A program made the position numbers and the translations under genes. Below the pieces are notes generated by a model that was given only the letters and a program-made list of their open reading frames with translations, searched no databases and was not told where the DNA came from. From NCBI GenBank assembly GCA_947044365.1, contig OX345636.1, positions 16,045,115-16,109,114 of the forward strand: DNA of 64,000 nucleotides. Reading direction: 5' to 3'. Source of the stretch: Petrosia ficiformis. Taxonomy: Eukaryota > Porifera > Demospongiae > Haplosclerida > Petrosiidae. Positions 396 to 63,568 of this stretch are shown piece by piece. The first letter of the stretch is position 1; each line of letters begins with the position of its first letter.

Positions 396-1173
396 GATTG
401 ATGAAGTTGAAATGGGACGCCAATTACAAAATAAACGTAGGGATCTCCTGCGTGAATGGAAAGGCAGACGTGAAGCTACCATCAAAAGGATCCGAACTAC
501 AGCAGAAAAACTAGTAAAACATCATCGAAATGTAAACATCTCTTATATTACAGGATCACTAGCTGCTATTGGTGGATCAAGTATTGCTATCCTAGGATTT
601 GCTCTTACTCCAGTAACATTCAGTGCATCACTAGGGCTTACACTTGTAGGTGCAGGCATAGCAGCAGCAGATGGGGTAACTGCAGCTGGGGCAAGCATTG
701 TTGATAAAGTTATCACTAAAACAAGAGTAAAAGAAGCAAAGGAGCAGTTAGACTTTGATCAAGATAAGTTGAAGGAAATTGCTCTGGTTCAGTATCAGAT
801 CAAAAAGCAGAATGAAAGGATCAGAGAGAAATGTCCAGATCTCAAGGACGTGGATATATTCCGAGTGACAGATGTATTTTCATATGCTCAAGGAATAGCC
901 AAAGTAGGTAATCTTGCTTATAGAGTAGGAGAGGCTGCAGGTATAAGTGCTGTAGAGTTTGGCTCACTTGGACTCCGGGCTGCTGGTGTTGTAGCAAGAA
1001 GTGTGGCTACTGCAGGTATTGTCCTAAATGTAGTGATAATACCAATAGAGATTGTGAGGAGTGGATATAATATTGCACATGGAAATGAAACTAAAGCTTT
1101 AAAACAACTTCGTGAAATAGCTAACGAACTAGAACAGCAAAAAAAAGAGATCTGTGATCAGATGAATGTGTAA
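396..1173 (+). CDS. Gene 1 (partial): terminal exon encoding an ApoL-like membrane domain
   Basis: This is the last exon of a gene whose 5' exons lie left of the window. It opens after an AG acceptor with one base completing a codon, then Ile-Asp-Glu-Val, just like the ApoL exons of genes 2, 3 and 4; the ATG at 412 is internal, not a start. The roughly 258-residue product has a basic amphipathic start (KRRDLLREWKGRREATIKRI), a glycine/alanine-rich hydrophobic hairpin (TGSLAAIGGSSIAILGFALT onward), a charged helical stretch (LDFDQDKLKEI), a second hydrophobic segment near the end (AGIVLNVVIIPIEIVRSG) and a charged coiled-coil tail. The hairpin matches the apolipoprotein-L family signature, whose members insert into intracellular membranes and can form channels. 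By analogy with its neighbours a caspase-like exon should precede it. The function in this organism is inferred. Confidence 0.8.
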
Positions 1174-1689
1174 ACAGAACTGGAATTTTAATATATATTT
1201 ACCTGTACATGTACATGTATATTTTATTTAGTGTTTAGTTTAATACATTTTTGGTGTGATTAATTTTTTAGGATATTTTTGTGAGCTGAATATACATGTA
1301 ATTATTTTCAAAACATCTATTCAGAGATATAATGTACTGTACAAATAGGTTCATACCCATCAAAACAGCAATCTATACCACACACACTTAACTAGGGGGA
1401 TGGGCAATATTTTAGAGATACCAAATTTCCTTAACTCTCTATAAATACAATACCGGTATTGCAACATTAAATCAAATTATTCACTCACACAGTCACACAA
1501 TATTTATTTACACAAAATGTTCAGTGCTAAAGGCTTCAAAATACATTTTGAAAGATATAATTATATATCACTTATAGGATGTGTGGTTTGTAACATACTT
1601 TGCGTGTGTAATACATACTAAAAATACATGAAAATTCATGTGCCTAGCATGCTAGCAATAGGCATAAACAAACACACACACAAACAAAC
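1174..1689. other. Intergenic, no gene seen
   Basis: AT-rich 3' flank of gene 1. I see no coding exon or defined element. Confidence 0.4.
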
Positions 1690-1819
1690 AAGCAGCCACA
1701 ATGGCTTCATTAAATATTAGAGCAGCCACTTTGGCAATAATCAGGCACAATGGCTTAGAACAATAATAATCAGTCACCATGGCTTACATAATAAGCAGCC
1801 ACAATGACTTAGAAATGAG
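1690..1819. repeat. Degenerate tandem repeat (CAGCCACAATGGCTTA units)
   Basis: About four imperfect copies of a unit resembling GCAGCCACAATGGCTTAGAA, spaced roughly 30 bases apart. A further copy resumes at 2598-2616, immediately right of the TIR element, so the element has inserted into this array. Confidence 0.6.
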
Positions 1820-1952
1820 TAGTCTCGTGCGCACAGACGTTCGATAAGGAACGTCTGGGGAAACTGTTATTGATTAAGTTAGCACGATGGAATTTAATTA
1901 GTTGCAATAGTCATGTGATAAACGTATGCATTACGCAAGGCGTCAAATAAAC

Positions 1953-2114
1953 ATGGCAGTGATCTGTTCAGCGTGTAGCACTTCTTTGAATGATGCTGGA
2001 TCACGAAGGAACTTAGAGGGAGAGTCTTCAACTGAAGTAAGATGTAAAATAAAAGAGTTACTTTGTAGAACAGAGAGTGCCCATGATGTTGAAGAATTCA
2101 TATCTGGGCCATAA
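1953..2114 (+). pseudogene. Short CxxC-motif ORF fragment inside TIR element
   Basis: Reading from the ATG at 1953 the product begins MAVICSACSTSLNDAGSRRN, with a Cys-x2-Cys pair followed by an Arg-Arg-Asn-Leu stretch, and stops after about 54 residues, overlapping the end of the opposing RecQ fragment. The other RecQ-bearing element begins an ORF with the near-identical MAVICLACGD at 20631. The shared start suggests a genuine transposon-encoded zinc-binding N-terminus, truncated here. Function unknown. Confidence 0.4.
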
Positions 2115-4205: not shown

Positions 4206-5371
4206 ATATAATGAGACAATTTGAGAGAACTGATTTATGAAGGGTTATAATACACAGAACACGATGGTTATATATATAATCACATCTTTTATAATATTTC
4301 GAATTAACTACAGAGCTCAATATAGTTACCTAATACAGCTTTATAAACCATACTATAAATAATTCCCTAATGAAAGATCATCTATTTAGCACAAATCCCA
4401 GTATAAATGGCTAAATGCCTGGTTTGTATAGTGTAAACCACAGACAAGTCTGAGACAACTTAATTTTCATTTAATGTCATTGTGGTTTCTTTTTTTAAAA
4501 CAGCAATTCAGCTATGCTAAATGTAATGACTCAACAGATTAAACTATGAATACGATTTAAATTACTAAGCCTCAGCTATTTGTATGATTTATAATCATTA
4601 CAATAATATATTTTATAAGCAGCATCAGTTAACAACTGAAATCAACACCCATTTACTAAAATGTTTTTATAAAGTCATGAAACCTAGCTATCTCTAACAT
4701 ATAATTGAAAAAGCATTGCTACAGTAGTACTGTAATTAGGTAGGTATAAAATGTAAGTTGATTTCTACTTTCTGAATAGAACAAATGTAATATTAGACTA
4801 CATGTATGATCAGTGTGACAAAACAGACATGGAGAAATTTAATTACAAAATAAGTAAGGCCCGGAATAATGAATAAAAGGTATCTTACAAGCTTCATTAT
4901 TCTGTGCCTTAATTATTTTGTAATTATAATCATGTTTTCATGTCTGAAACCAACCACATTATAATTTTTATAGTTCTTTATTTTTTAACAACGGCTGCTA
5001 AGAGCTACATTGCACTTTTTTTCCACTTGTCTGTGCTACTAAAGTGTGTCTTTTTTTATTCATGTGTCACACGAAATAATTCACTGAGCCCCTCGCATGA
5101 CATAACTTTCTTAACTACAAATACAATGTCATTCTTTTCTTACATTACACACATCTACATATTTCTATATTATATAATTATATAAAAATAATTACAATAT
5201 ATTTGTGTATACAATGAGGCCTAAAAGGGGGGTAGGTGGATGTGGGTGACAAACAGGGTTAGTGTGCTGTGCCTATTTGCAACCTAACTTCAAATGTCCA
5301 AATCCTCCCGCTCCTACCTAAATTCAACTCTATAATGTATATAATTATATTGTATTATATATACATAATAG

Positions 5372-5461: not shown

Positions 5462-5520
5462 TTGGCACTTGCATAGGTGGTTGCTAAGATACATTGAATA
5501 CTGCTAGGATGCTTAATTAT

Positions 5521-6743: not shown

Positions 6744-9700
6744 ATGTTTGACGATGAGTTGGATTGCCTGCTTCAGAGCTATCATCTACCACAAGAAATA
6801 CTTGAAAAACAGTGTGATGATCAGCTCTTTCTAAAGATGGCAATGGAAATTTCCAACTTCGATAATGCTGCACCATATTTCGGAATCACAGAGGCTGAAA
6901 TTAATGAAATTCATTTTGATCGCAAATTTGAAAGATCAAGAAAGTTACATATGTTGTGGAAATGGAAGAAAAAAAATGGAAGTCGTGCAACACACCGTGC
7001 TCTTGTTGCTATATTTCTAAGCATGAAAGAACGACAACTTGCAGAAATAGTCTTGAAATACATCAAACCAGTCAATTATGAATCATCACGTTCACGGGTG
7101 TCAGATATCAATCCAAGTGCAGGAGGAAAATATCCCAAATGGAAAGATAAAAGTGCACACGAGAAAGGATGCATTAAAGCTCAACTTATGATAGAAAATG
7201 AGTATGTTCGTCAATGTTATGCTGAGCTACTTGATGACATATTTATTTCCTTCAAAAAAAACATCGATTTTGACCGTTTGAAGGTATTTCTACGAGCCTA
7301 TGGAGTTAATTGTCAGGCTACCAACATTTCTGGAGTACTAACAGAACTACAAACACGTCATATATCATGGTTCAACAACCACTTCCTGAAAGTCCTCGTT
7401 CATCGCTATGGAAATGATGATGATAAACGTAACCTGGCACGTTACGAAAAAAATGTGCTCATTCCTTACCTTCAAAAATCAATATTTGAAATACCGTCGT
7501 GTTCTTTTAGTGAAGGTCATGAAACAGAAGGTTTTATCTACTTTTCCCTATGTTTAACAGATGCTTCACCAAATGGACAATATATCTCTGTAATCCAACT
7601 GAGATTATCTAGACTGTTGGGAATAAAAGATGGGTTACTAAAATTAATTCGTTTCGATGAAGGAAGCACAATTTTGATTTTTGCACTACCAGACACACTA
7701 CTTAACATTCCTGGAATACGACAATCAATTGAGAAGTATTTTGTGTTTGATCACGAAAAAAATGTTTACACCACAAAAACTAACATAATGTAAGTTAATG
7801 TTTTTCATTTCTTATGACAAAATTATGCCTCTACTTACAATTTAAAAAGTATATATGTATAATTCAAGAGCTAACAGTGTCATTGTAAAAACAGATAGCC
7901 TGATTCTCAGCTGTTGTTGATTTTGTTAAGACACGAAACAAATATCTTGTGGTATTAGCCATTTATTCATAACCAGCTACTTCTGTCTGAGCATAAAATG
8001 ACAGGATAGCATATAGCAGTATGATATTAACTGTAATAGTACAAAGTACAATATGACATCATTACGTATGTAGACATGAATACACATACTCCATACTACT
8101 AACTCAACAACACTATATACCTAATACGTAATCCTGTAACCAACTAAACCAAGTATATGTATCAATCCATTGTTCTACCGTGAAAATAGCATGTAACTAT
8201 GGAATGGCCAAAATTATAATGCACAAAATGCTTTGTAGAATTTTCCAAGTTGCTATGTAAATTAACAAGTGACACATAACCTATGATTATCATTGATTTC
8301 CGTTTTAAAAGCTGTTAGACATCATATCAGTCATACTACACTATTAATTTACTTAGTCATTGTGAACAACAACATTCCAAAACATATCCTATTCTATCTT
8401 ATGATGTGACATGCAATTCATGTAACAAAGCATGTGATTAAAAGAATCAATTCATTTTTTTTTCTTGTTATAGCAAAATTTGTCCACAATTTGATATGGA
8501 CTGTACTGTGCACTACCTTTTACCTACATGTACTATCTATGTTAGTGCTGAGCACTGCCCTTTACCTACATGTACTATCTATTATGTTAGTGCTGTGCAC
8601 TGACCTTTACTTACATGTATTATCTACCCTTTATTAATATACTATCTATACCCTTTCAATTCTTACTTGAGAAAGAAACATTTTTCCTGAACCAACAAAT
8701 CTCCAACAACAGACATACCCTAAAATGTTGATTAAGCCTAAAAATGGTCTCGATATACTAACAAAAATCACACTTTCTTAATCTATTATACATGTACATA
8801 ATTATAATCATAATTATAATCATGGCTGCATACCTAATGATGTATAATGCACTTTGCACTATTACAACTAATTATCATAATATAATATGCTATCCTATGC
8901 TCAGATGTAACTGGCAATGATTTAATTTATTCCTTTGCATTTGCTTGATACTATGCAAATTGTTAAAATGAAATGCAAATAAGATAACTGTTTTCACAGT
9001 GATATAATTATTATTATGAATTGATAAAATGGATTTGATACAACCTGTAATATATATGTTCTTTAGATCCAGTGTCTTAATTAACTAATACCTTGTGCCA
9101 ATCATAAAACTGTAACTAACTAGTGATTTAGCACATGTAAAAACTATAATGTTATGCATTGATCCTGAAATGTTTTATGAACACCGTAAAATGTACTAAA
9201 CCTTTGAACAAAATAAAAAATGTATATTTTATGGTGATATATATGTCTCAATCTTATTACAGTGCACAACAGCTACTATATCCAGACATAGATGATAAAA
9301 ACAGAAAAGAGTTGGAAGGTAAATGAGTACATTACATCATTGTAATAAACATGCTATTGTCTAATTCATGCAACAAGGCACAGAAAGTAAAAAGTATACT
9401 CTATGTAATGAATCAGGGTTCCTAAGTTATCACTGTTGTACTTCTCCTAATATACATTTATGTAACAACTAAACTCTTAATCATACTTGAGTCACATTAT
9501 ATCAGTGATGTTTCACACTGTATTATCATCAAGTACGGTACCATTTTGTACAACTGCTTCTATGAAATTTGTGAATGGGAAGTAACCCCACTATATGTTT
9601 ACTTAGCTACAATCATTCTCCACATGTCAGACACAATTATAGTAGCAGCACTTCACATCAGCAGTTAATCAAATGTTTTAAATAACATGGAATTCATATG

Positions 9701-12700
9701 TATCCAAGTAAAATTAATGACTAAAGGATCAACCTGTTCTGCACATGCAGTGTGGTAATCTGGTGTGTAGCTTTATAAGACTAAACAAAGAGTGGTGGAT
9801 GATTATGGTTCACCTGAGCTAGTGTCGTATTGTGTGGCACTTGAAGAATTGGCACAACTCAGTAAAATTCTTGTATTGTTACTAATAAAATGGAATGTAT
9901 ACATATTTAGTGTACTTCTAGTGTTGTTCCAACATACGTATGCACTGCAAAAACAGATTGATTCTTTAACTATTTACTTGGTTATATGTATATTATATGA
10001 TTTATATCTCCTTAACTGCTGATGTGAAGTGCTGCTTTGTGCATAACTCCTGAATACAGCAGTATGGTGTGAAATGGCATATTATGCAAACTCTAAAATA
10101 AAATTATTGGTTATATAGTACAGTTGCAAGTATTTAACAATTAGTTGATTATTCAGAATACCAAAGTCATAGCTACATGTATTTTGTACAGTTAGTTGAA
10201 GCACCATAATTTTAGGGTGCTGTCAAATCAAATTTTGTGCAAACAATTTAGTACGAGTTTACTACTACACTGTAAAAATGAATGGGTTATATTTGGTTAC
10301 ATGAGTTTCAATTCCTATATAAATCAATGCTTATTTCATGTCTAACTAGGTAATGTTTACAAGTAGTAATTTGATTTGATCTATATTGACTAGTGTACAA
10401 AGTACATGCCATAATAAAAAATGGTAACAAAAGCAATACAATGTGCTGACTTTTCTAATATCTGTTATCTGTGGAGTACATCACATATTACAAGTAAAAA
10501 TTCATGTACATACTAATATTGATTAATTACTCTGGAATGAGCTAGTAACATCTGTTGTTTTCGCAGATGTTGGAATTGGAATACACCACAAGTTATATGT
10601 CCTTTACCTCTACATGTTATAACAACAAACATTGCCTGATGTCATTCATTGCTACTAAATGAATGCTCAAACCTCCTCATGGTGAAGCTATTTAGCATTA
10701 TTATTCATTCTCAAAGTTCATAAACATAGTAAAAGAAAGCAGCATGTGGCATCCAATAACTTTCAGAAAATGGCCATAATTACTTTGAAATTATAACAAT
10801 TATGTATTCATTCTATAATTAAACAATGACATGACAATTTGATCCAAATAGTATGACACCAGCAAATATGAATACATGTATGTTTAATAATGTACATGTT
10901 TTTTTTAGTAGTCGTCAGTTTACTTCCTAGGATATTCATTTGATATTATAATTATACATTTGTGAACTGTTTGTATAGTTGAAACCATACAACTTCACAC
11001 ACAATGACTCAGCCACTATTCATTCTCCTAAGACATATACTGATTTAGCCTGTTATAATTATTTGGACAAAACCCTCAGAATCCAAATAATGCAATCCCA
11101 CCAAATCAGTGTAAAACCTATGCAAATTGTATTAGAACTATGGAAAACTGTTTAGTACTTCATACTTGATACGTACAAGTACAAAATCATAACCATAAAC
11201 ACAGAAATTTTCATCAGTAAAAAAATTTACACATGAATTAAATCGTTGTATAAATTAAACAGCACCAAATATTAGTTGGTAGGAATGTACAAAAATTTAA
11301 TGGCAAATTAGAAGGACTTTGAGTTGTTTCCCAGACTATACAATTACCAACATTCTGTCTTATCATGCCATCCATTATTCACAGGTACAGATGCATATAA
11401 CACACCTCCTGGATTTTGTTTGATTATCAATAATTGCATGTTCGATCAAAGTTCCCCAATACCATGTGGAGAGGTGGATGAGGATACCATGAAGAGAATT
11501 TTCCAGCAACGTGGGTTTATAGTGGATGCTCGACGAGATCTCACCAAGTTACAAATGTTACAAGTTCTGGAAGAATATCAAAACATAGAACACACTGGAT
11601 GTTTCGTTGTTATTATTCTCAGTCATGGAAGGGATGGAGTTGTTCTCAGTAGTGATGACCAAGAAATACATATTGCTGACATCGAAAAAGAATTTCATCA
11701 AAGTAAATGTCCATCTCTCCAAGGAAAGCCTCGTATATTCGTTATCGATGCATGCAGAGGTCAAGAAGACAGCATAGAGTTTACCAGTAGTACACAAACC
11801 TCTACTGATCTCACAAAAAAGCCTTTTACCAGTTCGTTAATATTCAATCGATCACGACAAAGCGAAGACCCAGAGATGGCTGATACTGCAATAATTTATG
11901 CAGTTTCAGACAAAAAGAAGGGTAGTCACAGCTGTTTGAGGAAGTTATGTGTGAAGGAATAGAAAGAGACATGGAATTCAACACCATCATGACTGAAGTC
12001 CATTATCGAATTTACAGAATCCAACCTGAAACTAGAAATTCCTCGACAGTGGATATAGTAACCAGACTTAGACACCAGTACTACTTTAAATTGTAAGTGT
12101 TTTATCAAACATCCATTCTTTTGCCCCCCATTTGTTTACAAAAATACACATACCATTACTGTATGCTTACATACTTATGAATATTGTATCATAAATGTTC
12201 TGCTTACCTTTAACAATAATTAGGATTGAACTGGAGGTTGTACGTGCATTACAAACAAAACTGAGAGATACTATTTGTGAATGGAGAGGAATACGAGACA
12301 ATACAATCAGAATGATTCGAAATATAACGGCAAATCTCGTAACACATCGTCAAAATGTTAACATTTCTCTTATTACTGGATCACTAGCTGCTATCGGTGG
12401 ATCAGGTATTGCTATCCTAGGATTTGCTCTTGCTCCGGTAACATTCGGTGCATCACTAGGGCTTACAATTGTAGGTGTCGCCATAGCAACAGCAGGTGGG
12501 TTAACTGCAGCTGGGGCAAGTATTACTGACACAGCTCTCACTAAAAATGGAGTAACTGAAGCACAGAAACAGTTAACATATGATCAAGGCAAGTTGCAAG
12601 AAATTCAGGCGATGCAGGATCAGATAACAGAGCAGAACCTAATGATGAAGGAAAGATGTCGTAATCTCAAGAACGTAAACATATTTCGGGGGATATCTGT

Positions 12701-12947
12701 ATTTGCACTTCCACTCCGCCAAGTACAAGAAAAAACTGCTAATTTTGCTTTAAAGGTAGAAAAAACTGCAGCTACACATAGAGGTGTGTCAACTCCAGCA
12801 AATGTATTCCTAAATGCAGTGATGATACCAATAGAAATTTTAAAGAGTGGGTGGAATATCATTAATGGAAATGAAAGTATAGCTATAAAACGACTTCATC
12901 ATACAGCTGATCAACTCGAAGAACAAAAAAATGAGATCTGGGGATAA
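6744..12947 (+). CDS. Gene 2: Death domain - caspase-like - ApoL-like, frameshifted
   Basis: Proposed exons: 6744-7789, 9263-9318, 11385-12092 and 12224-12947, all GT-AG. Exon 1 encodes a Death domain (about residues 1-108; core LHMLWKWKKKNGSRAT) and a conserved module containing SWFNNHFLKVL and SIFEIPSCSF. Exon 3 encodes a caspase fold with catalytic His in LSHGRDG (about residue 448) and Cys in DACRGQ (about 491), so protease activity looks possible. Exon 4 is the ApoL-like tail (TGSLAAIGGSGIAILGFALA). Relative to genes 3 and 4 about 7 nt are missing near 11926-11935, shifting the frame and giving a stop at 11960-11962 before the small-subunit end. Coding resumes in another frame (LFEEVMCEGIERDMEFNTIM) to the normal donor at 12093. 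The exons sum to 2534 nt, becoming divisible by three once 7 are added. It is either a recent pseudogene, a shorter protease lacking its tail, or an assembly error. Confidence 0.8.
8497..8640. repeat. Minisatellite, about 50-bp unit, three copies (gene 2 intron)
   Basis: Units contain TTTACCTACATGTACTATCT followed by a variable GTTAGTGCTG(A/T)GCACTG part. It lies in intron 1 of gene 2. An ORF spans it only because the unit lacks stops in that frame. Confidence 0.75.
10263..10450. repeat. CACTG-family repeat fragment (gene 2 intron 2)
   Basis: Begins ACACTGTAAAAATGAATGGG and continues with sequence shared with 16904-17090 and 27146-27315, including CTATATTGACTAGT and CATGCCATAATAAA. Only the left end is clear here. 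Confidence 0.6.
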
Positions 12948-17368: not shown

Positions 17369-17912
17369 TTAACCCTTAGAGGACTGATGTCACATATATG
17401 TGACATTTGACCCCTACGCAGTTCGGAATGTGTTCCTAGCATTATGAAGCACTCCAAATGCTTGTAATTTGTGTCAGGGCCAAGCCCATGAAAATGGCTG
17501 AAAACGTTGATGGTTTTTCAGCCAGCCTGTGGCCTAAATAACGAGTATGAGGGAAATTTTAAAGGGGGTGTCCCCCTGTTAATGGAGGTTTGAAGGGTGC
17601 ACAGTCCCCTTGCTCCCCACGCTGTAGAATCTGAAATCGTGGGTGTAGCCGGTGCCAACATGCAGTGGGGTCATTTTGTTTGCCACAGTTACAGTCAATA
17701 GAGGAAGAGCACTGCATTTGATTTAATCGTACAAAGCGCTTGGGGACTTTCGAGTCCCAGTAAGCAAGTTGATAGAAGTAGTACTCCATGTCGGAAAAGG
17801 AGCCAAGTTTGGGCTAGAGAAAGTGAATGGTGGCCAAAATATATGCAATAGAGATGCTAGTGTTGGAAATGGGATGAATTTTGAAAAACAAAATCAGTTG
17901 TCTAAGGGTTAA
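17369..17912. mobile_element. TTAA-type (piggyBac-like) element, 544 bp
   Basis: Bounded by TTAACCCTTAGA at the left and TCTAAGGGTTAA at the right, with TTAA on both sides. Closely related to 30590-31134 and, in opposite orientation, to 13523-14273. A 76-codon minus-strand ORF matches the equivalent ORFs in the other copies but resembles no transposase I know. Confidence 0.75.
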
Positions 17913-21365: not shown

Positions 21366-21783
21366 TATAAAACGGGAGAGTTCCGTTCGAACAGAGCGTG
21401 CGTGAGATCGTGTGAACGAACATGCATGCTTAGTCAAAAAAATTTAATTATGAAATCATAAAAGGTTTATATATACATTGAAAATTTGAAGCTATACGGT
21501 ATATTTATCTCTTTGGGAAACGTAACTTGAAGCAAGTTAATCTGAAAACTGAGATTATTATTACCAAATAATTATGGCAAAGAAAGGTAAAAACACAATA
21601 TAATGTTACCATAATTTATATACTGATCAGTAAATGAAGATATATACAAAAACTGATGCAAAATTGTGCAATTAACGTTTTTGCCAGTTTTAAGCAATTT
21701 TCGCATGTACTCATGGAAATAACTCAAATAAGTAAAGTAATTGTGCTTTCACAAATTCTTCGGCAAGAAAAATGTAGTGTATT
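21366..21783. other. 5' flank of the module-ApoL gene
   Basis: AT-rich. An ATG at 21574 followed by a possible donor at 21587 (ATGGCAAAGAAAG then GTAAAA) is a candidate first exon for the 21889-23667 gene. It would require an acceptor at 21915-21916 rather than 21887-21888. Not resolved. Confidence 0.3.
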
Positions 21784-39695: not shown

Positions 39696-42600
39696 ATGTT
39701 TGAGGTAGAGTATCCACTAGATAGTCTGCTAACACGATTTAGCCAGTCACGAATTAGTCTTGAGAAACCATGTGATGACAACCTCTTCCTTGCTCTGATG
39801 TTTAAAATCCCAAGATTCGACAATGCTGCACCATTTTTTCGTTTAACTCAGCCTGAAATAGAAGCTATTCACCGTGATTACGACAGTGAGAAATCAAGAA
39901 GATTGCACATGTTGTGGAAATGGAGAAGAAAGAATGGCAGTGATGCTACATATCTAGCACTAGTTACCGTATTTCTGCAAATGGATGACAAGTACCTGGC
40001 AGAATTTGTAATGCAGCACACAAAGCGCACTGTTATAATAGAGCCAATTGATTCTCAACTAAATCCAGAGAGGAGTGCTAAGTATCGGAACTGGGACAGA
40101 ATGAGTAAGGCAGAACGGGAACAAGTTAAAAATGATCTAACTAGTCAAAACTGTGAAGTTCGACACAAGTATGCTTCTCTTACACTTCGTATTTTGCAAT
40201 CTTTCGAGAAACGCAATGTTACAGTTCCGAAATTGAAAATTTTTTTGCAGTGTTTTGGTATTCCAAGACATACATCTGGTGAACCATTGGTACCCAATAC
40301 ACTACTCCCGCACTTTGAAAGTGATAGCAGTCTCGAAGATATGTTCTTAACATTGTCCCGCTATTATTCATCATGGTTCAACATACAATTACTCAAGGCA
40401 ATTGTTAATGGAGAGTTGGGATGCGTAGACGATCAACGAGAGGTAACGAAATATGAGCAGGAGCTCCTTAGTTATCTGCAAAGATCAATATTTGAAATAC
40501 CATCAAAATCATTTGCTCAAGGACAGGAAGATGACAGTGCAAGACATTTGTATGTTCGTTTACCCGATGGTAACCCCACAGGACATGACGTGTATCATCT
40601 TCAAAGTACCATATCCAAGCATTTGGGAATTAGTGAAGGGATTCTTCAATTCATTGGTTTTGAAGAAGGCAGCATAATGTTGATATTTAGAATACCAGAA
40701 GCATTACTTGAGCTACAAACCTCGGTAAAGAGACATATTACATTTGACCCTGTCAAGAATGTCTACAACTTCAATAATGATGATCTCAAGCAAATACTGT
40801 AAGTGAATGCTAATACAAAATTTTAAGAATTACCAGCACATCTTACATGTGACATATGTGTAATATATGCCTTTTATTTGTGAACCTCCAGATAATAGTC
40901 CAAGGTGAAGCCAAAGACTGCTATTGAGAGGTGAAGGTCTGATATTACTTATCTGGACCAATAAGACATGCTATATTTAGAGCCTATATGTATACTGAAT
41001 ACTTCTACAGCTTCAAAAATTGCCTGATTGCTATAGCTAACACTGTTAGCTATAGAATATATTATAATACCGTATACCAGTGTTAGCACCAGAAAAATAA
41101 TATTGGTCACCACTTGTTGTTTATGATCTTACATGTGTGTCATTTATTTTGAAATACATGTATTTGAAACGAGAGTATATTTCTGAATGAAAATCATGTA
41201 TTATATATGCCAACAACTGAGTAACAGGACTGATACATAAAAAATATTGGAGCGATCACCATGCTTACACACAAAACATTCGACCATCTACGCAAGATAA
41301 CCATGAAAACTCACACAATCATTCCAAGTTAAACGATCTTTTAGGCTTCTTGGATTGTGGGATTGACTAAGCTTCTTCTACATTTCTGGAGTTAGTTAGA
41401 ACTTGAGCCAGAAGGAAGAAGGTATGATCGCAACTCAAATCGTAAGTCAGCCATTCCAATTCCTGAACGCGTGTGCACACCCAGTTATTTATTATTCATT
41501 ATTAATTTTATTATTAATTACAAAATGGAGGATAGAAGAAAACCGGTCGTCATTTGACAGAGAGACGACCACTGGTGCTAACACTGCCGTACACGCTAAA
41601 ATGTTTGCAATAAAATTACGCAATTTTCGAATTGAATTTTTTTGCCGCAATGTTTGTATGCAAAATTCCAGCATGTGGGTGTGGTAAATGAGCATAGTTT
41701 CAATTTTAAGAAAATATGCAACATTAAATTTTAATTATAAAGTTGCGACATTATTAACCAAATGCAAATTATAAATAAAATCATTGAGAAACTGACATGC
41801 ATACACCACGAAGATATTTATTTAGTTTAAAGTAGAAGTATAAAGACACTAAGTATAGGCGTTGCCACTGACTACTGTGCTTAGTTGTCACTTACAAACA
41901 CTCGCTTTGCTGCTTTCCCGTAGTTGACAAAGCATGTTTTGGTATTTATTGCTTTCTCAGAGGGTCTTCTGTCTACCAAACTGAGTTAAAAGAACATGCT
42001 ATTAAAATACCGAAGTTATACAGGCAAGTATAGAGGTGGGTGTTGCCTGTGGGACTCCAGTATTTGCCTTACTCTCCTCCAGTAAGTGAAGCATAAATTT
42101 GACATCAATGGCTTTCCTGGCAACTCCTCTTTCCAGCAGAGTAAGTTAGATTGTTCAGTCTTATTAAATATTAGTTTCTGCACACTAATGATATATATTT
42201 ATGTGTGATTGAGTGTGACTTCAATAATATCGCAGATTTCGTAACTTTTTTGTCCACAAAATGCTGTTCGAGTAGATTTCGTGAAAATTTTTCTAACGCA
42301 TAAATTTTAGCATATACAGTATCTATAGATACAGGTAACTTTCATTAGCATAAAAAGTGCATGAAAGGTGCCATAGCTCATAACTGCCTGATTACTACTA
42401 CAGCTGGGCGATAGTATCAATATTTTCACCATCACAATATTAAACTGCTATCACAATTGGCACTATCCAGATAGTACATGCACCATGTATAGTTATGTAA
42501 ACCACTCTGTATACACCATGCAGTGCAACTGTTTTTGTATATAGTTAGGCTTTGTGGTTTAGTTATGTCAACAAATAGGAGGGAATTTCTAGCTTTACAG

Positions 42601-45051: not shown

Positions 45052-45085
<34 letters not shown>

Positions 45086-47149: not shown

Positions 47150-50100
47150 ATGACTGAGTTAGAGAATCCACTAGATAGTCTGCTAATACAATTTAGCCTG
47201 TCACGAATTCGTCTTGAGAAACCATGTGATGACAACCTCTTCCTGGCTCTGATGTTAAAAATCCCAAGATTCAAAAATGTTGCACCATTTTTTGGCTTCA
47301 CACAGCCTGAAATAGAAGCCATTCACCAAGAGTACAACAATGAGAGATCACAAAGATTGCATATGTTGTGGCAATGGAAAAGCAAGAATGGCAGTAATGC
47401 TACATATCTAGCTCTTGTTACAGTATTCCTCAAAATGGAGGATGCGTCCCTAGCAGAATTTGTAGTGCAGCACACAAAAAAAATTTATCTAACAGAGTCA
47501 AATGATTCTCAACTAAATCCAGAGAAGGCTGCAATGTATCCGAACTGGGACACAATGACAGATGGTGAAAGAGAACAAGTGAAATATAATCTAATAAGTC
47601 AAAATCATCAAGTTAGACAAAACTATTCATCTCTCATTGTCAGTGTTTTGAATTCTTTCGAGAAGCGCAAAGTTACAGTTGAGGAAATGAAGACAAAGTT
47701 ATTGGCTTACGGTGTTCCAGAAGCAGCGTCAGATAAATCACCTGCTACATTATTTCCACACTTTGAAAATGATGCTGCTCTTGAAGATGTGTTCTTAACG
47801 CTGTGCACACGTTATTCATCATGGTTCAACATACAACTACTTAAGGTTATCGTTGGTGGAGAGTTGGGATGTGAAGAGGATCAACAAATGCTGGCAGAAT
47901 ACGAGAAGGATCTGTATCCTTATCTGGAACGGTCAATATTTGAAATACCTTCAAAATCGTTTGCTACACAACATGAAAGTGCAGGTCTGGTATATTTGTA
48001 TTTTGGTCTGCCTGAAGATCACATTCCAACAGGAGAAGATGTGTTTCTTTTTCAATGTACCATATCTCTGTACTTGGAAATTACTGAAGGGCTTCTTCAG
48101 TTTATTGGTTTCAAGGATGGCAACAATGTTCTGATATTTGGAATACCAGAAGCAATACTTCAGATACAGAACTCAATAGAAAAACACATTACATTTGACC
48201 CTGTAATGAAAGCCTACAAATTCAATGATGATGATCTGGAGCGAATAGTGTAAGTGATTGTTATTATATTATAATTACATGCAGTATGTATATAATGTCA
48301 ACTCAACATTCTTCAAACATTTTAGGCCTCAAAGAAAACATTTAGAAGTTTCTGAAGATGTATTAGTGAGTTTATATGTGGCTATTTACAACTGAGATTA
48401 ATAACAAAATTTTCGTCAAATTAGAGTCAACCACTGGATAATGGAGAGAGCAAAGAAAAAGAGCTGCATTACCATCAAAATTGTAAGTACAAAACTTTAC
48501 TAATATTATAGTGATACTTGAAGACATAGCACAGTGTACAATCATATGTATAATACAGCAGATGGAACGCACTGAGGTGTGGTGCATTATTATCTAAATC
48601 AGCATGTATATCGTCTAGCTTAATTGCTAGAGTGTACTGCTTCATCATAGAACAAAGTGCTTGTATTGTAGGCTTCATAGGGGATATAAATTCTCTAGCT
48701 CCTTTATGTACTATAACTTGATGGGTCACCCTCTGGAAGTACTGCACCAAGAATACAAATCACACACCCCTACACAAGGCCTATAATACAGATATTATGT
48801 TAATTTAGTATTTATATAAAATTAATAAATTATTGTATGAGGTGAATCTGAAGCCAGTTAGAGTCAATGATGGCTGTACTCTAATATAAAGTGTATACAT
48901 TGGGTAAAAAGTAATTCATTGCCTATAAAAAATAACTTCTTTACTTTTGTTGAAGGTGAGAAAACCTTCTTGTGATTCATCAACATTCTGCCAAAATATC
49001 ATTACAGTACAATTAGTAAACGTGGTAAAGTAGTGTAATGTAAACAAGCTATTTTAAGCTTGTATAAGTAGGCAATGAATTACTTTATATGCACTAGAGT
49101 AGTACCATATAGCCCTAAATTTTTGCAGGCTATAAATTTCATGTTTTTCTCAAAAAATGACAGATCGCAAAACTTTTATTTGCAAAAATAATGGTCATGC
49201 CCACCACATGTGACCATTTGAATGTGAAGATTTTATCACGAAATATATAGTTAAATATTGTCCGAATGCAAAACTTTTACCTGACTGTTTTTCATAATAA
49301 TCAGACAATGATGGGTTAAAAGCAAGTTAGCACAAGCGAAAATAGTTTATAAACACTGTTGTCAATTAATGTGTGAAATAACTGTACCATATACGACATA
49401 ATTATATAGCTTAAACATTGTGATATTTCTAAAATTATAACAGCAGAAGTACTTCTAAACTTTCATCATCATGACAACTAAATAGAAAACTTTAATTTTA
49501 ACTGTATGGTACAACAAATAATGCCTCAGATTAGTTGTCTCTCTTATCACTTTATTTATTATAAAAATTAATATAATTAATTAATTTTACAGGTTACAAT
49601 GCTCCTCCTGGATACTGTTTGATAGTCAATAATATGAATTTCGGTTGTAGTGAATGCATGCCACAACGAAAGGTCAGTGAGGCTGCTATGAAGAGGATTT
49701 TCGAACCTCTTGGATTTACCGTGGTTTCTTTTCGAGATCTTACAAAAACACAGATGATACACGTTTTCGAAGAATATCAGAGGAAAATACACACAGGCTG
49801 TTTCATTTTTATTATTCTCAGCCATGGAAAGAATGGAGTAGTTCTCACTAGCGACGACCAAGAGTTACGTATTGAAGATATTGTCGACAGATTTAATAGT
49901 GCTAATTGCCCAACACTACAAGAAAAGCCTAGTATGTTCATTTTTGATGTTTGCAGAATTCGACCAGATTTTACAGAAGAAATGAGCAATCCAAAATCAT
50001 TGGATACAGATGATTTCAACTTAGCAGAGAAGCATTGCTCACTGAGAGGTGATATCGCAATACTTTATGCTACAGCTACTAAAGATTCTTCTTCTTTAGA

Positions 50101-52181
50101 ATCAGAGGAAGGTAGTCGATTTACGCAGTTGTTTGAGAATGTCATTTGTGAGGGAATCAACAAAAATATGGAATTCAATGCCATCATGACTGCACTGAGA
50201 AACGAATTCCAACTCCAAGGAAAAGATCAAACTCTAGAAATAACAGCCACGTTTACAAAGCATTACCACTTTAAATTGTAAGTGATATTTTTTTAAATTT
50301 TCACAATATTTATGACAATGCACTTTTGTCAAACATTTTAAACAAAATTAATATACAGTAGCTGGTTCAGAGAATTACATACCAGATTGCTATTCTGAGA
50401 ATTTTCTCAGACGTACATTTTACTTGTATTACTTAATATCTGGTGAAATAGCCAATTTGTATAAATGACTTGACACCTTCTGAATACATATCATGTTATA
50501 TATAACAGCCATTTTAGTGTATTACGGAAATTGCACTTCTCTTGATCTGTGGGTTATTGAAACTGATGAGCTTTCATATATACAGTGCACATTCATAATA
50601 TGGGAAATACAGCATTTATTTTGTTAATGCCCTCACACAATATAATTTAAGTGTAGGATCCCTTGTCTGAAGGCACATAATGCCTGTGAGAACATTGCTC
50701 ATTAAAGTATATAATCCTGAATGATTAGGTGTGTTATTTCTTTGATTCTCCAATAAATTTTTTATTTTGAAAAATAATACCAAATGTTTCGACAGCTATT
50801 CAGCTGTCTTCATCAGTGGTACAATAAACCATACATGTAATTCCAACTACTTATATAGCAATGTCAATTACTACGATGTTGTAAGCATTGTGTCTTTAAT
50901 AAACTGTTATAGACGTCAGGCATTAGCCCTTACTCTCTGTTGGTGGTTCCTGGGAGACTGTTGAAGTACCAGGATTCAATCACACAACGGGACATTATAT
51001 ATATGCTGTTCATAATTTTGAAAGTTTTCACCACTGATGATAGAAAGGAGGCAGACTAAAAACAAATAGATATCAATTCATGTACTGTTAACAACCTTAA
51101 GTAACCTTTCAATGAAACCTGTGTAAAACACTACGAATTTGTAAGTTTACTGTGATACATTTGCATGCATTGGCATGTAGGAGGAACAGTAAAAATAGTA
51201 ATACTATTGATTCCTCTTCCCAAAATTGAATTCTGTTCAAACTGGCTGTTTCTATGATAAATACTGAGTACTAACTGGTTTGTGTAGTCAAATTATCTAC
51301 ATAGATATATGTATATGTATATTTATAATGATAAATATATATTATTATATATATATATAATATATAAGTATGTATAATTGGAGCTATACATCATACTTCG
51401 CTTTTATTTCACAATTAGAATTGATGAAGTTGTAAAGGCACAAAAACTACAAAAGAAACTCAGAGATACCACATGTAAATGGAAACAAATACGGGAAACT
51501 ACTATTACAATGATCCGAGATACTGCAGCAAACCTACAATCGTATCAAAGAGGCTTAAACATTACTCAAATCACAGGATCAGCAGCTAGTGTTGCAGGGA
51601 CAGCTTTAGGTGTCGTAGGATTTTTTCTTGCTCCACCACTTGCTATTGGTGGAGCTGCGCTAGCAATAGCAGGTGGGCTAACTAAAAGCGGGGCAAGTGC
51701 TGTAGAGACTATTGTCACCAAGTCTGGAGTGAAGGAAGCACAGAAACAATTAAAGCAGGATGAAGAAATGCTGAAAGAAATGCAAGACATTCAGAAAGAG
51801 ATTGAAGAGCAGAATGAAAGGATAAAAGACAAATGTCCAAACATCGATGAAAGTGATATCCTCCAGGTGACAACTCTATATGTACATCCATTTGTCAAAG
51901 GAGTAAGCAGAGAAATTAGTTTGAAGGCAGGACAAACTGCAGGGGAAGACGTAGCAAAGTTAGGCGAGGGTCAAATTCAATTCAGTGCAACGGGAACTCT
52001 GACTAAAATGGGAATAATCACAAATCTAGTAATACTACCAATAAATCTAATTGTGATTGTAAAAAGTGGACATAACATTTGGAATGAAAATGAATGTGAA
52101 GCTTCAAAACAACTTCGTGAAACAGCTGACAACCTCGAACAACAAAAAGAAGAGATATGTGGTCCGATGGGGTTATTGTAA
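47150..52181 (+). CDS. Gene 4: intact Death domain - caspase-like - ApoL-like protein
   Basis: Proposed exons 47150-48249, 48326-48365, 48425-48482, 49593-50277 and 51419-52181 total 2646 nt, exactly 882 codons including stop, with every phase agreeing (2, 0, 1, 2). About residues 1-111 are a Death domain (LHMLWQWKSKNGSNAT), and 112-366 the shared module (SSWFNIQLLKVIV; SIFEIPSKSF). A 33-residue linker follows. About 400-628 are a caspase fold with catalytic His in ILSHGKNG (about 477) and Cys in DVCRIRP (about 520); the usual Gly after Cys-Arg is Ile. About 629-881 are an ApoL-like domain (ITGSAASVAGTALGVVGFFL hairpin; IITNLVILPINLIVIVKSG second hydrophobic segment). The start MTELENPLDS is set by alignment; an earlier in-frame ATG at 47048 is possible. 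The whole death-fold, protease and membrane chain in one polypeptide makes this the reference member of the cluster. Confidence 0.85.
48906..49087. mobile_element. 182-bp MITE with 18-bp TIRs (gene 4 intron)
   Basis: AAAGTAATTCATTGCCTA at the left is perfectly inverted at the right (TAGGCAATGAATTACTTT). Confidence 0.75.
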
Positions 52182-56946: not shown

Positions 56947-59900
56947 ATGTCTGAACAGCTAGACAGTATACAATTTAACCTGTTTAGTGAAGCACCACCT
57001 TCTCTTTCACTTCAACAGCCAGATGGTAAGTGAAATATTTGCCTTTTTGTCATGTGTATAAAATTATTGATTGTAGTAATTTTTGTTGAAAAAGGAAAGA
57101 GCATGTAGGAATGTCACAAAAACAAGATTGCCATGGTAACTAAAATAAACCAACGACTTAGACATAAGTAAAGCCACTTCAGATTTTGCTATCTATTGTT
57201 ATAATAAATAGAAATGACTGTTAATTGTGTTGTATAAGTCAACCTTATAGTTAATTAAAAATTTAATAATCATTACAGAATTTTTTATGCTTAGTTATTC
57301 AGTTATTGATACTAAAAAGCAGTCATTTTTTCAGAGCTATCTCTAGATAGAAAGTATCATATATACTTTTTAAAGCTGTCTATAGTCTCTAATAATTATG
57401 CATTTCCAATTCTTTTGTTTTATCCTTGCCTTTGGTATCATTGTGTGTATGTGTCTGTAGTCTGTACAGACTGTACTGTTAGGTGATTATTCTTAAATGT
57501 GCTTTACTTCATCATAACATTGAAGTAGTGGCACTTATACAGAAAACATGCAGTCATATCTGCCAAACGATTGCCACACATGCCATTAAAGATTCTGATC
57601 CACCTTAGTAAACACAATTCAAAATTAATTAATGCACCTAGTAAAGCACCACTGCCCCAAGTGTGCAGTGTGAATGAAAAACAAGCCACATGTAGCATTC
57701 CTAATCAATATTGAAAGAAAACGATACGATATTATATAATTATAATTATTATAATTGTGTATGTTACAATATACACTCCAGTCCTAGCTGGAGTACATAC
57801 ATCCTAGTATAAAACAAGATATAAAGAGTATCCCTATGACTGCTTTGTGGTGTCATCATGAGATGACTTTAAAACACAACTGCTCATTATTAATTTGATT
57901 GTCTACTCTCCTTAGCTTTTCAATGACCTTGTAGAACTTTAGGGATATATTTCAGGTAGATTAGCTGGCTATTAGTTCCAGTTTCTATATATGTAAGCTA
58001 CAAGCAGGTTACTTTCTGCTGGTCTGTAGAGCTGAGTGCGCATTTTGTTCGTGTCATACCCATTAATTGACCTTGCTCCCGGGATGACGCAACTTCCGTA
58101 AGTACGTATGCAACTCATACCTGTGTAAGTGACACAAGAATATATATAAACATACACTGAACCTGTGGGAAAGCAATCATAAGGATGGCCCTATGGGCCA
58201 TAAAAAAGTATTTTTGTTATAAATCAGTTTTGTGGCTTGAATCATTGTGCTAGGTGGAACTAGAAGTGACCATAATGGCAGAAAGCTTCTTATTATGTTT
58301 TATAGCAAACATTTTACATTTTGGTAATTATTTTAGCATAAGCAGTAAATATTTTTTATTATATATGTGACAAGGTTCTATAATTATCATTCATTTTACA
58401 TATCTGCTTCTTCCATTTTTTATCTTTAGTCACTCAAGGTTTATGTGTAAACTCTTTACAGAATCTTGAAGGTAAATTTTGCAAACACATCATAAATAAC
58501 TTGTTTAATTTATTAACCTTAAAATTGAATGTAGTTGTATACTCCTATAGCCTCTTATCAAATGATGTCAACTATATGTGGTTATGGTATCATCATTGAT
58601 AATCTTAACACAGAAACTACCAGAATAGTTGTTAAAATGCAAAGTATATGCTCAGCACTCATTATAGAATTCTTGTGGAATGTTTTTCCAATCTCTCCAT
58701 GAAAGGCATGAAGCAACTTATGAAAGCAGTTAGTAGAGTCGATCATAGCAACCTAAACTGCTTAATGGTTATTATCCTCAGTCAGGGAGAAAAGGAGAAA
58801 GGGATATACGATACACATGGCAAATGCATACCAGTAGAGGATATTACAAAGCATTTCTCTGATGCCGTGTGTCCTTCACTCAAAAGAAAACCAAAAATAT
58901 TCTTTTTCGAGACAATCCTAAACAATGCTACTTTAGTTTCCACATGTAATAAAGTACATTATCCTGATATGAGAGACATATATACACTCACATGCACTAC
59001 TACTAAGATATCATTTCTGCAAACAGTAATAGAAGCTTTCCAGAAACAACAAGATGGAGTACTCTTTGTTAACATTGTCGGAGACATAGAGAAGCTATTG
59101 CATGACAAGCATATTCAGAATATTGCTATTGATGTGAAAAATAACCTTGAGCAGCCACTTACCTTTCATAAGAGGCAACAACTAATTGATAAAAGGTTTG
59201 TTTCTTACAACTCACATTGAAGTGTATTCATGAAGTGATAATAATGATAATTACAATATTATAATTATTATATAATTATATATTATATATATTATATAAT
59301 ATCTTATGATGAGATACATAGCCCATATATTTCCAACTGAATATGGGAGTTACGAACCACAAATCAAGTTAACTTGAAGTATTATAGTAAAGGTTATTCA
59401 TTTTGGCATTTAATTAGTTTTATAATAATTATGATTAGAAACTGTATTGAAGTGTATAACCATCTTCTACCATGAACACACATGAAATATAGTAATTAAG
59501 CAAATCTTTGTGCATATATAGAAATGTGTACAGTATACATATCAGAGAGTATGGTACTCTTTATATAGAGACAGCACAGAAAAAAAATGCATGAAGGGTT
59601 GTTTGGAGGCGATGCCTATCAAGCTAATTGGCCATCCATGCATTTCAATTACCAGTGATGAGCTGAAATCTCTGCTATTATAATTGGATTTGATTTGCAC
59701 ATGCGGATCTGTGTCTTTTGAACATGGGGTTACTCTATAAGCATATTAATAATATTAATTTTGTAAGCAAATACATTTTTATAATTATTTTTGATAAAGA
59801 TTATGATATTTAAACTACTGTATGTATACTGGTAATAATAATAATAAAATTATTAATATTTATTACACTATAAGCAATGAATGCCGATTGGTTGACACAG

Positions 59901-61285
59901 TGACTGACACTAATTCTTGTGGGACTGCAGTCAATACTGTAAGTGATATATAAAATAGTCATCATCTGTAAGGGAAAGAGAATCATCATCGAATCATATA
60001 CACAAAAGACTAACCTTCAATGGTGAACAAGGCTTGTAATTGTGCCTATGTATAATTAGCTATAAACATTAAATGTTAATACAGTTTTGATTGTATGATA
60101 ACTTACACCAGTATTTCTGCAATCTACAAACAATATTCTACCATTCAGAAAAACAATGGAAACAAGAATAATAAAACGTTTAAAATAAAAATGAAAGATG
60201 TAGGGATGTCAAAACCCCAAAAACTTGCAGACAAGTTCAGGATTAAATTACAAACCAGTTCCATATAACCCTACATAAGTACCTACACTGCCATAAAGCA
60301 AAAGACAAAGAGCTGTGCTTAGGGTTACATGGAAGTGGTTTAATCCCGAACTTGTCTGAATGTTGTTTTGGGTTTTGACATCCCTACATTTTCTTTCATT
60401 TTTATTTTAAATGTTTTTGTTATTAGTATTTATCATTACCTTGTTTGTCTTGTTCATTGTAAACCCATATTTTCCATTATAATTGTTTATTTATAATGCA
60501 TATACCACTTTAGGGAACAAGGACTTGTAATTGCACATGAATTGAAAATGACACTAAGCATCTGGTCTCAAATGAGAACTCTCACAATCAAGACAATCAG
60601 AACAAATAGAGACAAAATCGTAGAAGTATTCAAAGACACACGAGGAATGAAAGTAGCTGGCTCTGTAACATCTGTAGCAGGAGGTGTGCTGACATTATTT
60701 GGAGTGGGATTGGCTGTAGCTACTGCTGGAGCAGGTATAATAGCAATTCCTCTCCTGGCTGGAGGAGGAGCTATAATAGCTGGAGGTGCAGCATCAGTTG
60801 GTGCTAAATCATTAGAAGTATACAAGTCACAACCAAAGCTTGTAAAAGTGCAGGAAACCATCGAGGTTGATCGACAAATCTGTGAATTGATTAAAACAAA
60901 TCAAGAAAAACTCCAAAAAATATCAGAAGATATACACAAAGATTGTCCTGAGGCAAACATTAAGGAAATTGTTGCTGCTTTACTTTACGGTAAAGAAATA
61001 CGTGAAAGGGCAACATTTCATGGATCTCTAGAGGCTCCAAGAAGATCTGTAACATTTGAAACTACTGCTAGAATTGGAACTGCAACTGCTTTAATAATAC
61101 CGGGCATTGGTACTATGTTATCACTCACCATATTACCATTTGATATATATCAGCTTTATACCGATACATTCCAAACAGAAACAAAAGCTATCCAGTGGCT
61201 AAACGAACAATTAGAAAAACTAGGTGCTCAAAAAGAGGAAATTGAAAGACATTTAGAAGCAATACACTCTCTACATACTGAGTGA
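56947..61285 (+). CDS. Gene 6: caspase-like (both catalytic residues lost) - ApoL-like, frameshifted
   Basis: Proposed exons 56947-57025 (ATG start, MSEQLDSIQFNLFSEAPPSL), 58430-58471, 58551-59195 and 60514-61285. There is no Death domain. The caspase-like exon opens with GYGIIIDNLN, matching the family start, but the homologous frame changes by one base between about 58630 and 58650, so the exon sum (1538 nt) is one short of a multiple of three. The catalytic His is Gln (ILSQGEKE), and the active-site Cys region reads FFETILNN, with no Cys. The ApoL-like exon is intact (MKVAGSVTSVAGGVLTLFGV hairpin; IPGIGTMLSLTILPFDIY second segment) and starts with one base after AG like its paralogues. It is either a decaying gene or one whose membrane tail is still selected. 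The splice model is from phase and paralogy. Confidence 0.65.
57830..58186. mobile_element. ATCCYTAT...ATTGCTTT TIR element, copy C (gene 6 intron 1)
   Basis: ATCCCTATGACTGCTTT at the left and AAGCAATCATAAGGAT at the right. It lies inside the first intron of gene 6. Confidence 0.7.
60162..60430. mobile_element. Foldback element, about 75-bp arms (gene 6 intron 3)
   Basis: GTTTAAAATAAAAATGAAAG followed by ATGTAGGGATGTCAAAACCC at the left is inverted at the right (GGGTTTTGACATCCCTACAT, CTTTCATTTTTATTTTAAA), with further inner complementarity. Confidence 0.8.
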
Positions 61286-61408
61286 TTTTAAGTTTACACC
61301 TCATACAATTATACACTAGAACTAGTGTCAATCATTATTGTTTCTGGATTACTGTACTCAAATAGTATTAAATAAAACACAGAATACAATATCATCAATA
61401 GGCATAAT

Positions 61409-61479
<71 letters not shown>

Positions 61480-61947
61480 CGTTTTGAGGATGTATAATTA
61501 TTATGAACAATGTGCATATTATTGTCATTAATCCCTATTGTTAATTCTATTCTCTGTTTGACATGTAACATTATATATCAACATATGTATAGTATTCCAT
61601 ACTAGCTAGTTATATATAAGGCATGTCATTACGTATTTTGTAATTGATGAATTCGAAGGTATTCACAGTTCATTACATCAATCAATTTATCTTTCTTGTT
61701 TCACCCCAAAGAGAATTTTTTTAAAGAGATGCACAGGAACTATCTTATGATATAATTATGGTAAATGAATTCCAGAGTTAATGTTATCTTGACATTCATG
61801 GTGGCACAATGGTGACTCATTTAAACATGAATTTGTTTAAGTATTACATCATCTACATTGTACAACAAACAAAGGTAGAGTTTTGTATTTGTCTGGTTTT
61901 AGCTTGATCAGTTGAGGTCTAATTACAAGAGATATACAAGCAGAAGT
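61286..61947. other. Intergenic between genes 6 and 7
   Basis: Contains an (AT)n microsatellite at 61412-61480. The last 40 bases before 61948 (AATTACAAGAGATATACAAG...) resemble the sequence preceding gene 3's start and may be 5' UTR. Confidence 0.45.
61412..61480. repeat. (AT)n microsatellite
   Basis: About 34 AT units with one interruption. Confidence 0.95.
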
Positions 61948-63568
61948 ATGGCTGCAATGTAAGTGTCTATCGTATTAATATATTTACAAGCACTTTTACT
62001 GATAATTATGTTACTACAAGTATCTTCTTCACCAGTTATGAAGATATTAACAAACAGGAAATAAGTTGCAGTAGTAAGTAACATAAATACATACTGTGTT
62101 CATTAGTTGCACATGAATCATAAACTAGTGAGAAAAAGGATGATTTATTATTATAATTATTTTCAAAACTTGTATATAAATGTACTTCTAGCAAACAGAA
62201 CTGGTATACAAGCTCATGGAAGTATAAAACTATAACTACCATCAACAACAGAAGAAGTTGTCCAAGCAAGCTATAAATCAATTACAGAATATACACTCTA
62301 TATAATAAACTTCATGATTGCACTCAGGCATATCACCCTTGTGCTAGAGATCGATTGTTTCAGTGATAGATTGTGTGTACATGCATTCTATAACTATAAC
62401 ATTCTATATCCTGCAATGACATGGTTTCATACATATGATTGCTGACGTTCATCATACGTTACTGTTGGTCAACTGTAATGGTAGTGTGTGAAACACTGAG
62501 AAATTTTAGATATATCTTTCTGATAATTATTATAATAGAACAGACTAGCTACAGACCAGCAGGAGAAAGATGCAGCAGCATTAAAGTTATATAAGAATCT
62601 TCAAAAAGTAAGTGGTGGAAAAAACAAAAAATATATAATATTGCTTGTTGGATTTCAGGCAAAATCTCTCACATATTGTAATGCATGCCATCATCTGATT
62701 ATTACAAGAGTCGTTGATGATATTTTACATACGTCTGAAAAATTAATTTTATTATGTTACCATGTTTGCATGTAAATATTTATCTATCTGGATTTTCTGT
62801 AAATGAATGAAATGGGATGGTATCCAACGAAGATCAATCAACATGTTTTAAGTATAAAATTTCAATTTCACAGGTTCAGACTATCCTACTGGATTCTGTT
62901 TGATCATCAATACTGTAAATTTCAATCACAGTTCATCAATACCATGTGGACAAGCCAATGAGATTGTTATGAAGAGGGTTTTTCAGCCACTGGGATTTAT
63001 AGTTGATGTTCGAAATGATCTGACTAAGTCAGAAATGAAACAAGTTTTGAAAGAGTATCAGAAAAAAGAACATGGTCACTGTTTCATTATTATTATTCTT
63101 AGCCATGGAAGGTATGGAGTAGTTTACAGTAGTGATGACAAAAAGATTAGCATTACAGATGAAATTGCCCAAAAATTTCAAAAGAAAAAATGCCCCTCAC
63201 TGGAAGGAAAGCCCTGTATATTCATTGTTGATGCTTTTGGAAGTAGTAAGAAAAATATCAGTGCCACAAAGCAAGAATGTACAAAAATGCGAAAACAAAG
63301 TGCATCAGAAATACAGAATGAAGCGACAGATATTGCAATAATGTATGCCAAAACTCAAGATGATCCTCTCTATTTCACTGAATATGAAGGCAATCTCTTC
63401 ACTAAGTGGTTTGAAAATGTTGTGAATAAGGGAATCAGAAAACAAACTATGTTCAACATCATAATGCCTGAAGTTCAGAACCGCCTTTCAAGATTTACAG
63501 GAAATCCACAATCAGTGGAGATAGTGTCTAGGCTTAGAAACCTATGCATGACACTTCAAGTTTATTGA
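61948..63568 (+). CDS. Gene 7 (partial): caspase-like exon with catalytic Cys replaced by Phe
   Basis: The start is an 11-nt micro-exon ATGGCTGCAAT followed by GTAAGT, paralogous to gene 3. One or more linker exons lie between 62036 and 62610 (candidates around TATGAAGATATTAACAAACA and CTACAGACCAGCAGGAGAAA), but their phases were not reconciled. The caspase-like exon begins at 62874 after TTTCACAG. It keeps the catalytic His in ILSHGRYG, but the active-site DACRG reads DAFGSS, so the Cys is Phe. The small-subunit part continues to LRNLCMTLQVY and a stop at 63566-63568, where paralogues have a splice donor followed by an ApoL exon. No obvious GTAAGT lies here, so the protein may end without ApoL, or use a weak donor upstream to reach an ApoL exon beyond the window. 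Confidence 0.6.

Follow-up and report, generated by a model that had tools for sequence, protein, structure and literature searches.

A predicted family of caspase-like proteins with C-terminal ApoL domains in a tandem gene cluster of the sponge Petrosia ficiformis

In animal cell death, the sensor, the protease and the pore usually reside in separate proteins. A 64-kb stretch of the genome of the stone sponge Petrosia ficiformis (C1:16,045,115-16,109,114; hereafter, the window) carries exons for Death, caspase-like (Peptidase_C14, C14) and ApoL domains, which raises the question of whether these are joined in one polypeptide. The assembly, odPetFici3.1, is reported to comprise 35 scaffolds and 191.25 Mb with a consensus quality of 62.8 (PMC12648040); our genome-wide searches took in 191.2 Mb in 29 contigs. 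An earlier note on the window had proposed seven genes sharing Death plus a following module, caspase-like and ApoL domains. Profile searches upheld all three assignments and the order Death-C14-ApoL on the plus strand. Pfam recognized three Death exons (1.4e-7, 4.4e-6 and 2.9e-9; frames starting at 6735, 39543 and 47030), five C14 exons (1.1e-14 to 3e-32; frames starting at 11312, 27384, 49577, 58636 and 62858), all of them above the Pfam cut-off, and six ApoL exons (2.1e-6 to 8.9e-21; frames starting at 352, 12195, 21889, 28444, 51378 and 60497). The curated cut-off of the ApoL family (PF05461) was passed by all six and by 19 of 20 genome matches. When 20 frames of the window were scanned with Pfam at E-values up to 1, gasdermin was not listed. 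The count of seven three-domain genes did not survive: Death exons stand at only three places in the window (6744, 39696 and 47150), two of which have C14 and ApoL next downstream (gene E, 6744-12947, and gene G, 47150-52181).

The junction for which gene structure speaks most clearly is that between C14 and ApoL. Genome-wide, we collected 22 ApoL-type exons (20 in the first search and two later) and examined their pairing with 30 of the 132 genome C14 matches, namely those on C18, on C7 and in two regions of C1. A same-strand C14 exon lies 0.43-2.5 kb upstream of 17 of these ApoL exons; 13 pairs belong to the cluster of the window, two are located at C1:14.02-14.05 Mb and two on C18. The cluster extends past both ends of the window, and across 200 kb the plus strand shows an alternation of C14 with ApoL exons, C14 first, with two consecutive C14 exons at some points. 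Both splice sites could be placed in 15 pairs (no donor was recognized in copy I and the end of C14 was not found in copy L), and in all 15 the C14 exon is left, and the ApoL exon entered, in phase 2. This phase is still held by copies broken elsewhere (D, E, H, M and 14a). The intervening introns range up to 2033 nucleotides (nt); that of E spans 131 nt, and each of those on C18 only 71 nt. Because the 2/2 phase recurs in every placed pair and introns are as short as 71 nt, the caspase-like and ApoL domains very likely share one reading frame. As far as gene structure goes, the predicted fusion of the two in one polypeptide thus has good support, which comes from the splice phases, from introns that can be very short and from an order that recurs at three chromosomal locations. 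The ApoL-type exons with no upstream C14 are five: that of gene 3 in the window, three on C7 and one on C2. Two ApoL exons on C7 (3725.3-3731.9 kb, L027) have no C14 match nearby, are 84% identical and show a ratio of nonsynonymous to synonymous substitution rates (dN/dS) of 0.49; possibly, they are stand-alone sponge ApoL genes.

Extending this fusion to a full Death-caspase-ApoL chain meets with moderate doubt. Gene G is the only one in the window that is unbroken and possesses Death, C14 with both catalytic His and Cys, and ApoL. Its predicted product of 881 amino acids contains no stop, and Pfam places Death at residues 39-103, C14 at 406-623 and ApoL at 648-874; the C14 domain matches caspase-7 (1.3e-17) with both catalytic motifs aligned. 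The Death-module exons of the window exit in phase 2 and C14 is entered in phase 1, so that a direct join would be out of frame; the frame is restored by predicted linker exons, one in E (56 nt) and two in G (40 and 58 nt). The matching splice phases of the earlier note therefore hold for C14-ApoL, but not for the step from Death-module to C14 in the window. At C1:14.02 and 14.04 Mb, a module exon and C14 are 78 nt apart and can be joined directly, in phases 2/2. The module portion of this exon shows homology to the cluster module (4.9e-6 and 3.5e-5), and the tryptophan-rich stretch of these exons resembles, by eye, Death-module exons. Taken together, the proposal of a single polypeptide is retained for caspase-like plus ApoL, and for all three domains only in intact gene G and at this second locus, where the Death-like exon goes unrecognized by Pfam.

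Three front ends are predicted among the caspase-bearing members: Death plus module (G), a Met-Ala start followed by an active and a dead caspase (C18a, C18b and J), and a short start with a dead caspase (F). C18a and C18b (C18:3405312-3408656 and C18:3417578-3420748; L028 and L029) share a plan of a start exon encoding MAE, an active caspase (SHG, QACR), a Ser-rich linker exon, a caspase devoid of both catalytic residues and ApoL, with predicted chains of 841 and 828 amino acids. Copy J (C1:16147232-16153001; 1003 amino acids) resembles them in plan but has two linker exons, and its second caspase retains His but not Cys. Gene F (26832-29229) would yield 489 amino acids without a stop from a start-like exon, with no Death. 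A further arrangement is found in gene 3, to which the public protein P0001, starting with MAKK, is 91% identical over 99% of the exon. Codons for MAKK followed by GT occur 300 nt upstream of that exon and only once in the 64 kb, so that P0001 reads as a spliced product. Near the start of the exon the window copy is one frame off relative to P0001. A second partial copy of the exon start lies at 21773-21820, about 100 nt upstream of it.

What might such proteins do? The earlier note had envisaged release of the tail by self-cleavage of the linker, and this finds no backing. No Asp position, read by eye, is common to the 15 C14-ApoL junction strings (to the right of the border: IEEVE, MEELK, IDEVE, IELEV, IDEVV, REQG, REEEG, TVHEL, NDGD and IEEG/IEKG), and 12 of the 17 ApoL-joined C14 exons lack at least one catalytic residue. 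Both residues are kept in 9 of 21 aligned C14 rows (one of the 21 ends before Cys) and in five of the ApoL-joined exons (A, C, D, E and G); as D and E are broken, A, C and G are the ones with the catalytic pair in open frames. An Asp between Cys and the start of p10, a border whose position we take from known caspases, is present in C, D and E (TTDL/STDL) and in G (LDTDD), and A has none there. Judged from the dN/dS of dead caspase pairs, calculated on frames that include some intron ends (0.25 for J/K, with 9 against 9 changes, and 0.43 for 14a/b), loss of catalytic residues is not equivalent to loss of constraint.

The ApoL tail would likely attack membranes, as suggested by family membership, by hydrophobic segments seen in hydropathy profiles and by weak similarity, at the level of profiles, to alpha-pore-forming toxins of bacteria (MakE, AhlB, non-haemolytic enterotoxin L1 and SmhB). 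This match is local (about 90-110 positions), covers the glycine-rich hydrophobic hairpin and could reflect convergence of that hairpin. The caspase fold is a dimerizing fold. Since most copies are dead and their common denominator is a caspase fold fixed to ApoL, we favour assembly-driven insertion into membranes. The proteins would act as defence or cell-death effectors in which pairing of caspase folds gathers ApoL tails, dimerization being brought about either by clustering of Death domains (as in G) or by the built-in pair of active and dead caspases (as in C18a, C18b and J). The clustered hairpins might then enter the membrane of the cell itself or that of an intracellular microbe. In members with a live enzyme, a cut would fall in the p20/p10 linker, leaving ApoL on p10 rather than freeing it; proteolysis would be an extra in some members and probably dispensable in Cys-less copies. 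Although the function of these proteins is subject to large doubt, we consider it an even call that they are single-chain effectors composed of a caspase-like domain, catalytic or dead, and a C-terminal ApoL domain, inserting into membranes after caspase-fold pairing.

Several observations weigh against the fusion, the full chain or the proposed mechanism. The C14-ApoL splice sites were chosen by eye and then checked by script, so their placement was not blind. Our searches revealed no transcripts joining caspase to ApoL or Death to caspase to ApoL, and the 881-residue chain of G found no relative among 7995 scored candidates. An ApoL exon used as a query retrieved 12 proteins, all of them single-exon ApoL pieces of 212-282 amino acids, in a search whose length limit left out fusions. 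The linker exons of G are the weak link of the three-domain chain: their conservation in paralogue D (27/40 and 35/58 identical positions) is on a par with that of the adjoining introns (49/76 and 37/59), and the donor of the second is not conserved there. Pfam did not detect Death in either of the two exons preceding C14 at C1:14, and the ApoL frame of 14a stops early, at 207 amino acids. No start exon or front end was identified for A and C. Death-module exons exit in the very phase in which ApoL is entered, phase 2, so that C14 could be skipped in frame. The dead caspase pair on C18 has a dN/dS of 1.14 (36 against 8 changes), and the ApoL pairs have values of 0.92 (C18) and 0.85 (14a/b). 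Finally, the structure model of ApoL is poor, with a predicted local distance difference test (pLDDT) score of 46.8.

Part of this evidence would suit a modular locus, in which Death-module-ApoL and caspase-ApoL are separate isoforms or have separate starts and the full three-domain protein is rare or absent. In-frame skipping of C14, gene 3 with its module and ApoL in one exon and a spliced form backed by P0001, the predicted short start exons without Death in F, C18a, C18b and J, and the frailty of the G linkers all point that way, but the direct 78-nt joins between module and C14 at C1:14.02 and 14.04 Mb and the unbroken frame of G make this explanation unlikely. The lack of a caspase-ApoL transcript in our searches would also be expected if Death adaptor, caspase and ApoL were three adjacent genes, transcribed separately and merely in tandem, and Death-module exons are indeed widely found away from ApoL (98 genome-wide matches). 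However, donor and acceptor phases match in 15 of the 17 C14-ApoL pairs, and the introns on C18 and in E leave scant room for separate ends and promoters, which renders mere adjacency highly improbable.

The scarcity of catalytic pairs could be read in another way, namely that these are pseudo-enzyme regulators whose mostly dead caspases have a decoy or scaffold role comparable to that of cFLIP next to caspase-8, with ApoL tethering them to a membrane and forming no pores. Only five of 17 ApoL-joined C14 exons keep His and Cys, three of them with open C14 and ApoL frames, and the dead pairs J/K and 14a/b, though not that on C18, have a dN/dS well below 1; yet A, C and G do hold the catalytic pair in open frames, and in C18a, C18b and J an active caspase is part of the same chain. 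We find this alternative quite unlikely and prefer single-chain effectors driven by assembly.

Several other copies in the window are broken or decayed (Table 1). The Death and C14 exons of gene D lie upstream of the window and both carry stops, as does the ApoL exon of gene I beyond the other end. The C14 exon of gene E is frameshifted, so that its chain stops at 559 amino acids. No C14 exon occurs between the orphan Death exon at 39696 and the next Death exon; between two Death-module exons there is an AIG1/GIMAP-like GTPase frame (45006-46238, plus strand; Pfam AIG1 1.6e-8) with a glycine-rich hydrophobic C-terminal stretch. Two minus-strand fragments (2098-2466 and 20705-21043) share a helicase-like LPTGFGKSLCYI motif; the first matches DEAD at 7.9e-10 and the second gives no such match, and they are perhaps repeat or transposon remnants. 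Direct repeats outside the domain exons pair 17393-17852 with 30612-31120 (85-89% identity) and 4627-4800 with 18863-19036 (97%).

Table 1. Exons assigned or predicted in the window, in order of position
Gene	Feature	Position	Strand	Basis and remarks
D	ApoL exon	396..1173	+	Pfam ApoL 8.9e-21; acceptor phase 2
E	Exon 1, Death domain and helical/RRM-like module	6744..7789	+	Pfam Death 1.4e-7; donor phase 2
E	Predicted linker exon, 56 nt, phase 2 to 1	9263..9318	+	sequence and chain
E	Caspase exon with DACRG, frameshifted ahead of p10	11385..12092	+	Pfam C14 2.1e-30
E	ApoL exon	12224..12947	+	Pfam ApoL 3.6e-11; 131-nt intron, phases 2/2
3	Predicted start exon encoding MAKK, phase 1	21574..21586	+	predicted from P0001; single pattern match in window
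3	Single exon for module and ApoL, without C14	21889..23667	+	Pfam ApoL 1e-15; P0001
F	Predicted start exon, phase 2	26832..26842	+	chain
F	Predicted linker exon, phase 2 to 1	26984..27051	+	chain
F	Pseudo-caspase exon, catalytic Cys lost	27388..28045	+	Pfam C14 9.7e-25; alignment
F	ApoL exon	28497..29229	+	Pfam ApoL 1.2e-16
	Orphan Death-module exon, 62% identity with its counterpart in G	39696..40798	+	Pfam Death 4.4e-6
G	Exon 1, Death domain and module, begins with Met	47150..48249	+	Pfam Death
G	Predicted linker exon 1, phase 2 to 0	48326..48365	+	chain
G	Predicted linker exon 2, phase 0 to 1	48425..48482	+	chain
G	Caspase exon, catalytic His (SHG) and Cys (VCR)	49593..50277	+	Pfam C14 3e-32
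G	ApoL exon	51419..52181	+	Pfam ApoL 6.1e-11; phases 2/2
H	Degraded C14, His and Cys lost, stop in matched stretch	58636..59195	+	Pfam C14 1.1e-14
H	ApoL exon	60514..61285	+	Pfam ApoL 2.1e-6
I	C14 exon, Cys to Phe, no recognized donor	62874..63568	+	Pfam C14 3.6e-28

None of the papers listed in our literature searches described a caspase-ApoL fusion. If true, the fusion would represent a second way to couple sensor, protease and pore, in an early-branching animal phylum. It would also connect the ApoL fold with cell death in an animal distant from vertebrates and open the ancestral function of ApoL to tests with a few recombinant proteins. A single chain with an active and a dead caspase in tandem is unusual in its own right. 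The caspase-8/cFLIP heterodimer likewise pairs an active caspase with a dead one; in C18a, C18b and J both are predicted to reside in one chain and to be followed by ApoL. The module after Death ends, by strand order, in a predicted RRM-like fold and may correspond to TRADD-N, with a sub-threshold Pfam match (PF20694) of 0.084 in gene 3 and 0.12 as the best genome match; none of six isolated domains matched TRADD-N. Fusions of Death-like domains with TRADD-N (NCOA6 clade) and variable C-terminal domains, including caspase, are described from Amphimedon (Kaur et al. 2021, PMC8195603), likewise a sponge with a large lineage-specific family in which Death comes first and the adaptor module follows; ApoL has no occurrence in the main text of that paper, figures and source data apart. 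With vertebrate APOL1-6 the sponge exons share the ApoL domain, above the Pfam cut-off, and hydrophobic stretches, whereas the passages on these proteins in two sources, which report a detergent-like action of APOL3 against intracellular bacteria, describe no fusion to caspase or Death (PMC8358165, PMC12248677). Gasdermin-mediated pyroptosis is placed in Coelenterata and later groups, with sponges not listed, in passages of one survey (PMC11508797). A serious but doubtful possibility is that the family represents an independent, all-in-one sponge counterpart of caspase-gasdermin death, which would sense clustering, pair active and dead caspases internally and form an ApoL pore without cutting it free. 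In both systems a caspase is coupled to a membrane-damaging module, but the sponge family would combine them in one polypeptide, with ApoL instead of gasdermin and without a common border Asp at which the tail could be released.

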